The notes below the pieces were generated by a model. The model was not told the DNA's origin and made no database searches. It saw only the letters and a list, made by a program, of their open reading frames with translations. This document shows, piece by piece, positions 8,907 to 16,611 of a DNA stretch of 64,000 bases; the stretch's first letter is position 1; each line of letters opens with the position of its first letter. The position numbers were made by a program, and so were the translations under genes. This DNA is from Marinitoga sp. 1197. GTDB taxonomy: Bacteria > Thermotogota > Thermotogae > Petrotogales > Petrotogaceae. The stretch is taken from the NCBI RefSeq assembly GCF_001021165.1, contig NZ_AZAY01000010.1:1-64000 (forward strand). The letters run 5' to 3'.

Positions 8907-9103
8907 TACGATGTCCAAAAAGTAAAGTCGCTCAAACCTTGATTGTTAATCCTCAAAAATAGCTCATTCTTGCCGGTCGTATCAGACTCACATCCGTGTT
9001 CGGCTTCACTCAATTTTGCATCCGTGCAAAATTGACCGGCTTCATTCGCTATTTTTTCGGACAATCTGCGAGTTTTCGCTCGCTTTACTAATTGGACACC
9101 CTA
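8907..9103 (+). repeat. Palindromic TA-bounded repeat, subgroup A copy 1 (197 bp)
   Basis: Begins TACGATGTCCAAAAAGTAAA and ends TTGGACACCCTA; the two halves are reverse complements over most of their length. Two apical hairpins are nested inside: CACATCCGTG and the longer stem TTTTGCA / TGCAAAA around TCCG. A second subgroup A copy of identical length and direction is at 11770-11966. No ORF of note inside. This plus the structured stretch that follows fills the 395-bp gap between nrdJ and the next gene. Confidence 0.85.
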
Positions 9104-11513: not shown

Positions 11514-11682
11514 AAACTCCCCCCTTTAATGGATTTTTAATTATTATATCATATTCAAGCCTCTTTTGTCAAAGAAAATTAACATATCGCTATTTGTGAT
11601 AATATTAACGTGTTTCGAAGTTACATTTAATTTAAAAATATGTCAAAAAAACGAAATAATTAAAAATTTAAAATTCATCAAT

Positions 11683-11769: not shown

Positions 11770-11966
11770 TACGTTGTCCAAAAAGTAAAGCCGCTCAAAC
11801 CTTAATTGCTAATCTTCAAAAATAGCATATTTTCGCCGGTCGTATCAGACTCACATCCATGTTCGGCTTCACTCAATTTTGCATCCGTGCAAAATTGTCC
11901 GGCTTCATATGCTATTTTTTCAGGCAATTTTCGAGTTTTCGCTTACTTTACTAATTGGACACCCTA
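11770..11966 (+). repeat. Palindromic TA-bounded repeat, subgroup A copy 2 (197 bp)
   Basis: Same length and direction as 8907-9103, starting TACGTTGTCCAAAAAGTAAA and ending TTGGACACCCTA, with matching hairpins (CACATCCATG and the TTTTGCA stem). The rest of the 11514-12031 gap holds the antiporter's AT-rich upstream region, the inverse small repeat at 11683-11719 and a terminator; no further gene seen. Confidence 0.85.
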
Positions 11967-11985: not shown

Positions 11986-12009
11986 AAAAAGGGGTTTTAA
12001 CCCCTTTTT
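11986..12009 (-). terminator. Terminator of the PadR - PDO - trxB operon
   Basis: Palindrome AAAAAGGGGTT / AACCCCTTTTT, followed on the minus strand by a second T-run. It sits just downstream of trxB. Confidence 0.85.
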
Positions 12010-12031: not shown

Positions 12032-12988
12032 TTAATTAAAATATTCTCTTACTGCAAACGATGCTGCGATTGCTCCATCAGCAGCTGCAGTTATGATTTG
12101 TCTCAATTCTTTTTGTATAACATCTCCTGCAGCAAAAACACCTTTTACATTTGTTTCTCTATGTTCGTCTACTATTATATATCCATAATCATCCAATTTT
12201 ATTTTATCTTTAAATAATTGAGTTACAGGTAATAAACCCACAAATACAAATACACCATCAACATCAAAATTTGATACTTCACCATTTTCTCTGTTTTCAA
12301 GTACTAATTGATTTACCTTTTTATCTCCTTTAATTTCTTTAACAACAGAATTCCATATAAATTTTATATTAGCTGTATTAAATGCTTTATCCTGATAGAT
12401 TTTATCGGCTCTTAATTTATCTCTTCTATGAATAATATAAACTTCTTTGGCTATTTTTGAAAGATATAATGCTTCTTCTACCGCGGTATTTCCCCCGCCA
12501 ATTACAGCAACTTTCTGATTTTTGAAAAAATGTCCATCACAAGTTGCACAGTAAGAAACTCCACGACCTGCAAATTCTTTCTCGCCTGGTACGTTTAATT
12601 TCCTCGGTGTTGCGCCAGTAGCTATAACTACTGTTTTTGCTTTTACAATATTTCCATCATCAAGAGAAATTATTTTTTCTTCTTTCTCAAAATTTACATT
12701 AATAACCTCACCATAATGAAATTCAACACCAAATTTCTTAGCATGTTCTCCCATTTTTTCTGCTAATTCTTCACCAGTAATTGATGAAAAACCAGGATAA
12801 TTCTCAACATATTCGGTTAAATTAATCTGACCACCATCTAAATCCTTTTCTATTATCAACGGCTTGATTCCACCTTGAACAGCATATATACCAGCTGCAA
12901 CACCAGCAGGACCTCCACCTATAATAATCATATCATAATATTCTTTTATATTGCTTTTACTTTTAGAGGTTCCCAAATCAAAAAACAT
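12032..12988 (-). CDS. trxB: Thioredoxin reductase
   Basis: FAD- and pyridine-nucleotide-dependent reductase of thioredoxin-like proteins; 318 residues, of which about the first 18 (MFFDLGTSKSKSNIKEYY) extend past the usual start. Motifs: FAD site IIGGGPAGVAAG, redox-active disulfide CATCDG, nucleotide site VIGGGNTAVEEA, HRRDKLRA (favours NADPH), and C-terminal FAAGDV. GGAGGG precedes the ATG. It follows the protein disulfide oxidoreductase gene by only a few bases and should be its reductase, a pairing known in hyperthermophiles. Confidence 0.95.
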   Translation of the reverse strand: MFFDLGTSKSKSNIKEYYDMIIIGGGPAGVAAGIYAVQGGIKPLIIEKDLDGGQINLTEYVENYPGFSSITGEELAEKMGEHAKKFGVEFHYGEVINVNFEKEEKIISLDDGNIVKAKTVVIATGATPRKLNVPGEKEFAGRGVSYCATCDGHFFKNQKVAVIGGGNTAVEEALYLSKIAKEVYIIHRRDKLRADKIYQDKAFNTANIKFIWNSVVKEIKGDKKVNQLVLENRENGEVSNFDVDGVFVFVGLLPVTQLFKDKIKLDDYGYIIVDEHRETNVKGVFAAGDVIQKELRQIITAAADGAIAASFAVREYFN

Positions 12989-12991
12989 TGT

Positions 12992-13669
12992 TTATCCCTC
13001 CACAGCTTTTAATACTTCTTCAACAAAGTTTGGTTCAGGATATGCACCTATGAATTCACCTTTTACTACCCATTCGCCATTTTCAAATACTTCTATAACA
13101 GTATGTGGGACAGAACTTACGTTATGTTTTGAAGATATTTCGAAAAATTCATTTGCTTCAACCATTTCACCATTGATGTTTTCATTTATCATTGCAGCTT
13201 GTTGTGCTGATAATACTGCTCTTGGGCAGTATGGACATGTTGGGGTAACAAAAACTCTTAATCTCATTTTTTTATTTATATTTCTTAATTTTGCTACAGC
13301 ATCTTCGGATAATTCTACTTCGCCATTTTTGGATAATAATATCAAATCCTGTAATAATGTGCTGAATTCGTGTCCGGATGGTATACCATAAAATCTTACA
13401 CCTAAATCTGTCCCATTTGAGGCTAATATAACTGTAGCTGGAGCTAAAGTTTTATCTATTTCATATTCTTCGGCAATAGGTGAGTTTATATCATAAATAT
13501 CCAAATCTACGTTTTCAACACCTTCTTTTAATTCTGTGTATAACTGTTTTGTTACATCACAATATTCGCAATTTTCCTTTTCAAATAATATTATTTTTAC
13601 TCTGCCTTTCATTTCTGATAATAATTCCCTAACTTGTTCTAATGTTTTTTCATCTAATAATTTTTCCAC
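12992..13669 (-). CDS. Protein disulfide oxidoreductase (two glutaredoxin/thioredoxin folds)
   Basis: About 225 residues in two thioredoxin-fold halves, each with its own active site: CEYC (residues 34-37) in the first and CPYC (145-148) in the second; the second half also has SVPHT with the cis-proline. This is the thermophile PDO family, which forms and reduces protein disulfides in the cytosol. The upstream GTG (13678) lies inside the GGAGGTG ribosome site, so GTG 13669 (spacing 8) is the likely start. It is sandwiched between a PadR regulator and trxB in one operon. Confidence 0.92.
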   Translation of the reverse strand: MEKLLDEKTLEQVRELLSEMKGRVKIILFEKENCEYCDVTKQLYTELKEGVENVDLDIYDINSPIAEEYEIDKTLAPATVILASNGTDLGVRFYGIPSGHEFSTLLQDLILLSKNGEVELSEDAVAKLRNINKKMRLRVFVTPTCPYCPRAVLSAQQAAMINENINGEMVEANEFFEISSKHNVSSVPHTVIEVFENGEWVVKGEFIGAYPEPNFVEEVLKAVEG

Positions 13670-13685
13670 AAAAAACACCTCCGAA

Positions 13686-14045
13686 TTATATATTTTCTTT
13701 TGCTTTTTTAATAAAATTCTTCAATACTACAATTTGCTCTTCCATCTCTATAATAAAATTACTTATTCTTTCTTTTCCTTTTTTAGTAACTTTATATATT
13801 TTTCTTGGTGGGCTAGATGTGATATCCCAATCAAATTCTATTTCTTTTCTTTTTTCCAATTCAGATAAAGCTCTGTATACCCTTCCTTTTTGACCAATTC
13901 CTTCTGGTATAGTTATTCCCATCTCACATAATCTATTTGATAATTCATAGCCATAACTGGCTTTCTCTGCAATTAGTATCAACAAAAGATCACATATTAA
14001 TTTCCCGCTTTTATTAAAGACTTTACATTTATTCATGGATTCCAT
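13686..14045 (-). CDS. PadR-family transcriptional regulator, three cysteines
   Basis: A winged-helix regulator of 119 residues: LLILIAEKASYGYELSNRL is the N-terminal PadR signature, followed by GRVYRALSELEKRKEIEFDW and the wing SSPPRKIYKVTKKGKE, then a short C-terminal dimerisation helix. I start it at ATG 14045 (GGAGGG just upstream) rather than at the far upstream ATG 14135, which overlaps the promoter. Cysteines at 7, 18 and 40 are unusual for so small a regulator. It leads the operon with the disulfide oxidoreductase and thioredoxin reductase, which suggests thiol-redox control, an inference. Confidence 0.88.
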   Translation of the reverse strand: MESMNKCKVFNKSGKLICDLLLILIAEKASYGYELSNRLCEMGITIPEGIGQKGRVYRALSELEKRKEIEFDWDITSSPPRKIYKVTKKGKERISNFIIEMEEQIVVLKNFIKKAKENI

Positions 14046-14090
14046 TTTTCCCTCCAAATATAACAAAAAAAGTCTGATATCATCAATCAT

Positions 14091-14119
14091 ATTATATACA
14101 AAATGTATATATTTGTCAA
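14091..14119 (-). promoter_or_regulatory. Consensus promoter with internal operator for the PadR operon
   Basis: On the minus strand TTGACA (14114-14119) and TATAAT (14091-14096) are separated by exactly 17 bases. Within the spacer and touching the -10 is a perfect inverted repeat ATATACA / TGTATAT with a 3-base centre (14094-14110), the right kind and place for an autorepressor site of the first gene. Confidence 0.8.
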
Positions 14120-14184: not shown

Positions 14185-16611
14185 TTAATCCGAAAATGAA
14201 TTATATATCTCCTTAATTTCATTGGAATATTTTCTGAAAATTTTTAAAATTTCCGGATTAAAATCTTCAGGAGAAGTTCTATCATCACCTTCTAATATAA
14301 TTTTCATAGCAGATTCATGCGATAATGCTTCTTTATATGGCCTTTTTGAACGAAGTGCGTCATAAACATCTACTATTGAAACTATCTGTGCCTCTATTGG
14401 TATTTTTTCACCTTTTAAGTTAAAAGGATAACCTCCACCATTATATTTTTCATGATGATATATAGCTATTTTTAAGGCGGTATCAAAATAAGGATCGTCG
14501 CCCAATAATCGCTCAGCATAAATTGTATGTTTCTTCATAATCTCATATTCTTCATCTGTTAGTCTACCTTTTTTATTTAATATTTCAAGTGGAATAAAAA
14601 TTTTTCCTATATCATGCAACGGAGCAAATTCTCGTATTTCAAGAATTCTTTCAGAAGGTAAATTTAATTTTTTTGCAATAAAAGATGCTAATTCTCCTAC
14701 TCTATATATATGCTGTCCAGTTATATCATCATGTGCTTCCGCTATTAATGCCAATTTACTTGCAAAATTAAGATATGCATTTTTTACCTGATCTATATTT
14801 AATTTGGAAGATAGCGTTGTTTTTGCAATATTAATAAATGCCTGAAATATTATTTTATCATTATCATTAAAAGATTTTTTGTTATCATCTGATGTTTCTA
14901 AAGAAAAACTCAATAATTTGTCTTTACTGATTCTTATAGTAGCAATCATTATTTCATTAATTGGTTTAGTTATTTTTAAAAATTCATGTTTTATTTTTTC
15001 ATTATCAAAGACTTTTTTATTATATTTCTCTAAATCTTTGCCTTTCATTACTTTTAGTTTTTCACCTGTTTTTATCATATATTTACTTTTAAGTGGTAAA
15101 TTTTTTAATTTTTCAATATCATAACCCACAGCAGAAATAAATTCCCAGTGTTCTCCATCAGAAATGGAAATACTACCATAATCTGCTGTTTCAGAAAGTT
15201 CTATAGCAAATTTTAATAAATAATCAAAATAACTATGAAGATCAATTTCCTTATTACCGAGATATTGTATTAAATCGATTATTTTAAATAATTTTTGATT
15301 TATCAACTGCAATTCAGCATTTGTAATCTCCAGTTTTTTTTGATGATTAATATTTTCTGTTATATCTACCCATAAAACCAAAAGTCCATTTTCTTTGTTT
15401 GGTAAAGTGATTGCTGTTTTATAATCTTTAAAGTAAAGCTTTTTATTATTTATATTTAACATAAATATGTTAATAAACCCTTTTTTATTCGAAGATAGAA
15501 TATTAATGTCTTCTATTATTGATTCTTCTAAAAGGTTTTTATTTGTGTCGTTAAATAAATCCAATAACGATTTACCTATAATATTTTCTTTTTTTAATCC
15601 CAGTAAATTTGCAAAAGCATTATTTGCAAATACAATTTCCTGTTCTATATTTTTGATGTATATTGGATTAGGAGATAAATTTACAATTTCTTCTATAAGC
15701 TTTTTTGAACTATTCAATTCTATAACTTTGTTTTCTAATTCTAAAAGTGTTTTTTTCAATGCAGTAGTTCTACTTTTCACTCTTTTTTTTAATATTTTTG
15801 AATGCAAATAAAATATTGCGATTATCAATATTGCTATTATTAAACCAAAAAGAATCATGTATTTTAACCAGGTGGGTATTTTTTCTCTAATAATTGGTTC
15901 AAAATATTTATCAAAAGTTCTATAGTAAAATGAATTATTATCCTCTTTTAATTTTTTTAATTGTTTATCAATCAAATCAAAAATATTTTTTAAATTATTA
16001 TCCTTATACATAATATATCCGCCAATTGGCTTAAATATTATAGAAGTCTTCTTTACATTATATTTTTTTCCCTGATCAAGTCCAAAAAATCTTGGAACAA
16101 CACCAGCATCAATTTCTTTTTTATCCAACATTTTAAATATATCATCATATGTATCGAGTTCAACAAATTTAGCCTTAATATTAAAACCTTTTAATATATC
16201 TTTTATTCCGCCATTTCCTTTATAAAAAATATCTGTTTTCATTACACCAATTTTTTTATTTTTTAAATCAATAATAGATGAAAGATTAAGATTTTTTCTT
16301 GTATAAATAACAGCCCATTCAAAAAATACAGCCTCTTGATTAAAATGAAAAAATTGAGATCTTTCGGGCGTAAAAGCTAATGGGGCAACACCATCGATTT
16401 TGCCACCTTTAAGTTTTTCTATCAAATTTTGTTGTGAGTCAATAATTATGTTCAATTCTATACTATTACTATTTGCAATAAATTCAAGAATATCATTTAA
16501 AAAACCATTATTTTTATCAATAACAATAGGTGGAGCTTTATACAAACCTATTGTTATTGGAAAGGAAAAAATGTTTATTATTATTATAATTATAAAAAAT
16601 ATTTTTTTCAT
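14185..16611 (-). CDS. HD-GYP cyclic-di-GMP phosphodiesterase with periplasmic binding-type sensor and PAS domain
   Basis: 808 residues. Order: signal/TM segment (1-20), extracytoplasmic solute-binding domain of the SBP_bac_3 type (about 20-240, IGVMKTDIFYKG, EIDAGVVPRF), a TM helix (about 250-272), coiled coil, PAS (about 305-420, NPIYIKNIEQEIVFANNAF), a GAF-like region, and a C-terminal HD-GYP domain with LHDIGKIFIP and HHEKYNGGGYP. The full HD and GYP motifs suggest an active phosphodiesterase that is driven by a small ligand bound outside the membrane. Closely parallels the protein at 29566-31470, which lacks the PAS domain. RBS AAGGTG. Confidence 0.9.
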   Translation of the reverse strand: MKKIFFIIIIIINIFSFPITIGLYKAPPIVIDKNNGFLNDILEFIANSNSIELNIIIDSQQNLIEKLKGGKIDGVAPLAFTPERSQFFHFNQEAVFFEWAVIYTRKNLNLSSIIDLKNKKIGVMKTDIFYKGNGGIKDILKGFNIKAKFVELDTYDDIFKMLDKKEIDAGVVPRFFGLDQGKKYNVKKTSIIFKPIGGYIMYKDNNLKNIFDLIDKQLKKLKEDNNSFYYRTFDKYFEPIIREKIPTWLKYMILFGLIIAILIIAIFYLHSKILKKRVKSRTTALKKTLLELENKVIELNSSKKLIEEIVNLSPNPIYIKNIEQEIVFANNAFANLLGLKKENIIGKSLLDLFNDTNKNLLEESIIEDINILSSNKKGFINIFMLNINNKKLYFKDYKTAITLPNKENGLLVLWVDITENINHQKKLEITNAELQLINQKLFKIIDLIQYLGNKEIDLHSYFDYLLKFAIELSETADYGSISISDGEHWEFISAVGYDIEKLKNLPLKSKYMIKTGEKLKVMKGKDLEKYNKKVFDNEKIKHEFLKITKPINEIMIATIRISKDKLLSFSLETSDDNKKSFNDNDKIIFQAFINIAKTTLSSKLNIDQVKNAYLNFASKLALIAEAHDDITGQHIYRVGELASFIAKKLNLPSERILEIREFAPLHDIGKIFIPLEILNKKGRLTDEEYEIMKKHTIYAERLLGDDPYFDTALKIAIYHHEKYNGGGYPFNLKGEKIPIEAQIVSIVDVYDALRSKRPYKEALSHESAMKIILEGDDRTSPEDFNPEILKIFRKYSNEIKEIYNSFSD

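Follow-up and report, generated by a model that had tools for sequence, protein, structure and literature searches.

Repressors of the PadR family are known mainly as small-molecule sensors. The PadR/LmrR-type proteins are autoregulated through an inverted repeat that overlaps the promoter and respond to phenolic acids or drugs; the regulator described here, from the heat-loving, sulfur-reducing marine bacterium Marinitoga, shares their fold and differs from them in its target genes. A redox switch of comparable genomic layout has been described in the archaeal regulator SurR (PF0095, TON_0318). In excerpts of three reports, SurR is a small winged-helix protein of S0-reducing thermophiles that has sites both at the surR gene itself and at pdo/glutaredoxin genes, is oxidized by S0, and is reduced in vitro by TrxR-PDO (PMC12162507, PMC7278568, PMC9426492). 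According to the same partial texts, surR and pdo/glutaredoxin share SurR sites in the Thermococcales and the TrxR-PDO pair reduces SurR in vitro (PMC12162507), whereas oxidation of the SurR CxxC motif by S0 leads to the loss of specific DNA binding (PMC12162507, PMC7278568). In T. onnurineus, an excerpt of PMC4463584 gives an increase of PDO on sulfur. Within the PadR family, RosR of Halobacterium has a PadR-type winged helix and is needed in oxidative stress (excerpts of PMC9426492 and PMC3443676). In contrast to the Marinitoga protein, RosR is described in the excerpt of PMC3443676 as being without cysteines, and its sensing must therefore differ. As for the host, an excerpt of PMC7795431 states that Thermotogae reduce S0, thiosulfate or polysulfide, lists Marinitoga species as S0 reducers, and notes that M. 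hydrogenitolerans growing on glucose gave undetected H2 when S0 was available.

The locus compared here with these systems lies in a 64,000-nucleotide stretch of DNA from Marinitoga sp. 1197, hereafter the window, and comprises padR followed by the genes for a disulfide oxidoreductase (PDO) and a thioredoxin reductase (TrxR) (Table 1). We consider it probable, on the evidence of sequence comparison, that this PadR works as a dimer to repress a small thiol-disulfide regulon, its own gene included, through a thiol switch that would be reset by its own PDO and TrxR. The operon regulator is a PadR by both domain and fold. A profile search recovers the PF03551 winged-helix domain at 51.6 bits (cut-off 27), and the top Foldseek matches of the structure model are PadRs; LmrR and Rv3488 are among the structures matched. 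The closest structure, TM0937 (2esh), belongs to the same family and is 43% identical over the aligned part. The model was built on four sequences and has a mean pLDDT of 75, with residues 1–10 below 50; it includes a long C-terminal helix (residues 88–117), which is a dimerization feature of the PadR family. Counted from the ATG at 14045, the only cysteines are residues 7, 18 and 40, as the preliminary description had stated, and a CxxC motif is absent. Cys7 is located in the low-confidence N-terminal tail, Cys18 inside helix 12–28, and Cys40 close to the end of helix 32–41. In this model, Cys18 and Cys40 would be close together if the two helices pack antiparallel. The assignment of the next two genes to a CxxC/CxxC disulfide oxidoreductase and a thioredoxin reductase likewise holds: profile searches give 235.8 bits for PDO against TIGR02187 (cut-off 185) and 404.6 bits for TrxR against TIGR01292 (cut-off 343.45). 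For PDO, the codon at 13678 is the less likely start; the GTG at position 13669 lines up with the ATG of three relatives and is preferred.

Table 1 Features of the padR-pdo-trxR locus, in window coordinates.
Feature	Position	Strand	Basis
−35 element, TTGACA	14114..14119	-	12/12 consensus promoter; invariant in 7 Marinitoga
Operator, ATATACA-TTT-TGTATAT, 3-nt overlap with −10	14094..14110	.	exact; arms invariant in 7/7 genomes, centre varies
−10 element, TATAAT	14091..14096	-	12/12 consensus promoter; invariant in 7 Marinitoga
PadR-family regulator, 119 aa, Cys7/Cys18/Cys40	13686..14045	-	PF03551; model matches PadR structures, best 2esh/TM0937
PDO, two-domain glutaredoxin-like (CEYC, CPYC)	12992..13678	-	TIGR02187
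Thioredoxin-disulfide reductase (CATC)	12032..12988	-	TIGR01292
Intrinsic-terminator-like hairpin, likely operon end	11986..12008	-	

The padR promoter consists of TTGACA and TATAAT separated by 17 nt and, as previously noted, matches the consensus at all 12 positions. The perfect repeat that had been placed in its spacer is confirmed as the 17-base inverted repeat ATATACATTTTGTATAT (14110–14094), and the placement was nearly right: the repeat occupies the downstream part of the spacer, and its right arm continues 3 nt into the −10 element. An operator that spans the −10 element is in a classic position for a repressor. In addition, one operator heads both the regulator gene and pdo, a feature of the SurR type, in which sites are present at the regulator's own gene and at pdo. 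Several further elements were observed around the operon. A gene for a solute-binding-PAS-HD sensor protein (14185–16611 of the window) is located upstream and adjoins padR at all seven Marinitoga loci. Another perfect promoter, TTGACA-18-TATAAT (11543–11572), precedes a gene of the Na+/H+ antiporter family. A dispersed repeat, about 200 bases long as judged by eye, has a 25-base core that is exact at 11936–11960 and carries two mismatches at 9073–9097; the same repeat seemingly also occurs upstream of the hydrogenase in this genome (L098).

The palindrome alone is weak evidence and was dropped as a stand-alone argument, because 23 perfect 7-3-7 inverted repeats can be counted in the AT-rich window when any sequence is allowed. 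Occurrence of the exact motif is well beyond chance, since base composition predicts 0.20 copies per 2.27-Mb genome and 18 sites were found in seven Marinitoga genomes (two or three in each), with 0 for a reversed control pattern. These 18 sites comprise the seven padR promoters, eight positions ahead of glutaredoxin genes, two ahead of hydrogenase genes, and one within a gene. The seven padR promoters align as TTGACAAATATATACA-nnn-TGTATATAAT, where the central three bases alone vary and the flanks have drifted. This distribution also bears on the possibility that the palindrome is read by another regulator and that the operon PadR is a passenger gene. At least one other PadR is encoded in each of the seven Marinitoga genomes, and binding of the operator by the operon PadR is a prediction, both of which leave room for a different reader. 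The motif and the operon PadR are nevertheless co-distributed in the family, with both present in 7/7 Marinitoga genomes and 0 exact sites in the 14 same-family genomes outside the genus, which lack this PadR; moreover, the motif is absent upstream of the PadR paralogues in two Marinitoga genomes (G000 and G043) and overlaps the operon PadR's own promoter. A passenger role is thus considered very improbable.

Sites with one mismatch are mostly noise (49 in the seven genomes versus 39 for the control) and were rejected at large as evidence of a regulon. In the genome of strain 1197, the motif occurs 14 times with no more than one mismatch. When placed on mechanical ORFs, of which the longest were kept, 11 of these sites are within ORFs, including 10 of the 11 one-mismatch sites. 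The remaining three are intergenic and lie ahead of padR, the glutaredoxin gene, and a gene for a ferredoxin-DUF1858-DUF2249 fusion. From the other six genomes, 14 of 38 one-mismatch sites were inspected, picked for recurrence or for closest likeness to the motif. Nine are in ORFs, among them obg-, thrS-, glgC- and sugar-phosphomutase-like genes (named by eye), and five are intergenic: two precede the ferredoxin fusion, one precedes the hydrogenase, and two (L109 and L110) lie ahead of genes in which no redox role is apparent and count against the regulon.

Outside the operon, the operator recurs at the glutaredoxin gene, which the exact motif precedes by approximately 17–21 bp in all seven Marinitoga genomes, with an additional exact copy 161 bp further upstream in one of them (G039). 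The −10 element of this gene likely lies within the operator. The product is a 79-residue CPWC protein of the YruB family (TIGR02196, 106.1 bits versus 88.55 for the one of the seven proteins that was tested). The ferredoxin-fusion gene was found in three of the seven genomes, and each copy has a one-mismatch site 58–64 bp upstream, inside a conserved block that contains TATAAT. In strain 1197 the product has 623 residues, and its orthologue in G043 consists of ferredoxin, DUF1858, DUF2249 and an SsuA-like part; genes for fusions of this type were located at L114:1233-3104 and L129:1689-3560. The unlinked glutaredoxin and the ferredoxin fusion extend the link to thiol-redox genes beyond the operon to which the preliminary description had confined it. 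A possible member of this candidate regulon is the bifurcating [FeFe] hydrogenase, which a profile search assigns to group A6 (908.9 bits versus 765). Exact sites are present upstream of it in two of the seven genomes (−249 and −252), a one-mismatch site at −361 is present in one genome, and the best sites of the other four have at least two mismatches within 520 bp. Because approximately 1.2 to 1.4 exact sites are expected by chance in the seven genomes and three are left after removal of the padR and glutaredoxin sites, chance suffices to explain exact sites in 2/7 genomes some 250 bp upstream, and the hydrogenase was rejected as a firm member. A repeat with two mismatches close to the hydrogenase start in six of the seven genomes may be just the −10 element. 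Separately, TTGTGAAAAAA-(A/G)TATCTA boxes are repeated upstream of hydCBA in most of the seven Marinitoga (L094–L100), which we take to be reminiscent of Rex sites.

All three cysteines, which the preliminary description had singled out for comparison among orthologues, are retained in 7/7 PadRs linked to the same operon. One of these, the M. lauensis PadR (87% identical), is frameshifted near residue 79 (L012 / L003), with the cysteines in the intact part; as the assembly contains further genes that look broken, the frameshift is probably a sequencing error. Across the six intact orthologues, which are 87–92% identical, 92 of 119 columns are invariant, so cysteine retention adds little, and, because the orthologues are close relatives, conservation alone is no proof of a switch. 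By sequence comparison, the stronger argument is that the three cysteines are present in just the lineage with the thiol operon and absent elsewhere. In a set of 26 other PadRs from fetched loci (23 from other Thermotogota genera, two Marinitoga paralogues and one from Erysipelotrichaceae), Cys18 and Cys40 are each found in 0/26 and Cys7 in 3/26, and the 3,152 residues of the set include 13 cysteines.

This comparison weighs on an ordinary ligand-sensing PadR, in which an aromatic or drug-like molecule bound in the dimer pocket would release the repressor, the cysteines would be incidental, and the redox genes would answer a toxic electrophile or quinone. Such a reading would fit the presence of the multidrug-binding LmrR among the matched PadR-fold structures, and in orthologues that are this similar the cysteines may be merely carried along. 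Against this, Cys18 and Cys40 are missing from all 26 other PadRs, the operon is without a transporter or catabolic enzyme, and the intergenic sites of strain 1197 with at most one mismatch all precede thiol or electron-transfer genes, although one of the products, the ferredoxin fusion, includes an SsuA-like part as well; we therefore regard ligand sensing as unlikely. Less likely again, and in our judgment distinctly improbable, is that a metal, metalloid or Fe-S cluster is coordinated by the three cysteines and governs DNA binding through its loss or gain, with the thiol-redox genes being induced by metal stress. Three conserved cysteines per subunit could serve as ligands, the metal-binding PadR Rv3488 is among the structure matches, and one target contains a ferredoxin domain; a CxxC motif and a metal exporter in the operon are, however, both absent, and Cys7 is in the low-confidence tail of the model.

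The linkage of padR to the redox genes is itself confined in its distribution. PDO is present in 100 of 103 Thermotogota genomes, and padR, pdo and trxR are adjacent in 7/7 Marinitoga genomes. At 23 PDO loci of other Thermotogota (L059–L081), a gene other than padR lies upstream in every case and no PadR is present within 1.5 kb; at the same-family loci the upstream genes look like those of a band-7 protein and a small membrane protein. Similarly, neither PDO nor TrxR is encoded within 1.5 kb at any of 23 PadR loci of other genera (L013–L035), and these 23 aligned homologues lack Cys18 and Cys40. A comparison of positions by eye showed PadR and PDO close together in a single genome from outside the genus (G101). 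This case was rejected as a second PadR-PDO operon: the PadR (L130:1418-1798) is outside the PDO-TrxR operon, a divergent gene separates it from TrxR, and cysteines are absent at the start of helix 1 and the end of helix 2. The distant PadR of G101, from another Thermotogota family, adjoins a gene that by eye resembles an alcohol dehydrogenase, and in the sister genome G102 no PadR match was present within the fetched stretch. A search of the contig database for PadR relatives returned only M. lauensis and three distant PadRs, and none were found in the viral contigs searched. Given the wide occurrence of PDO and its linkage to PadR in Marinitoga, this genus seems to have placed an old PDO-TrxR pair under PadR control.

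The preliminary description had proposed an autoregulated repressor of thiol-redox genes, and sequence comparison bears out its promoter-overlapping site and its redox-gene link and finds the cysteines conserved; the steps of regulation that would connect them are proposed as follows. Reduced PadR would occupy ATATACA-N3-TGTATAT across the −10 element and block RNA polymerase, repressing PadR-PDO-TrxR, the unlinked CPWC glutaredoxin and, where present, the ferredoxin-DUF1858-DUF2249 fusion. Upon thiol oxidation, two PadR cysteines, which we guess to be Cys18 and Cys40, would form a disulfide or persulfide and PadR would leave the DNA. Newly made PDO and TrxR would then re-reduce PadR and close the loop. 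The signal would most plausibly be elemental sulfur or polysulfide, owing to the SurR precedent and the reduction of S0 by Marinitoga, with oxygen as the alternative. By analogy, PadR seems to switch on disulfide-repair genes upon thiol oxidation in the manner of the unrelated SurR. In contrast, SurR is archaeal and, in the excerpts of its reports, is of the ArsR type with a CxxC motif, recognizes the operator GTTn3AAC, activates its own gene and the hydrogenases, and represses pdo, whereas the Marinitoga protein is presumed to be self-repressing. With its PadR domain and separated cysteines, and without the ArsR fold or CxxC, the Marinitoga protein is not a SurR. A broader version of this proposal is tentative: a sulfur/redox master switch of Marinitoga, built on a PadR scaffold and converged on SurR, in which S0 or polysulfide would oxidize Cys18-Cys40, PDO, TrxR, glutaredoxin and a ferredoxin-fusion electron carrier would be derepressed, the [FeFe] hydrogenase would be adjusted, and metabolism would shift from H2 to H2S.

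No thiol-switch PadR was found in the titles and abstract openings of the open-access papers that the literature searches listed, and such a switch is thus likely new to the PadR family. If the proposal is correct, a PadR with a thiol switch and with its reductant encoded in its own operon would add a mode of sensing to a large family. It would also be an equivalent of SurR that arose independently in bacteria, and would open the control of H2 versus H2S production by Thermotogota to direct testing.
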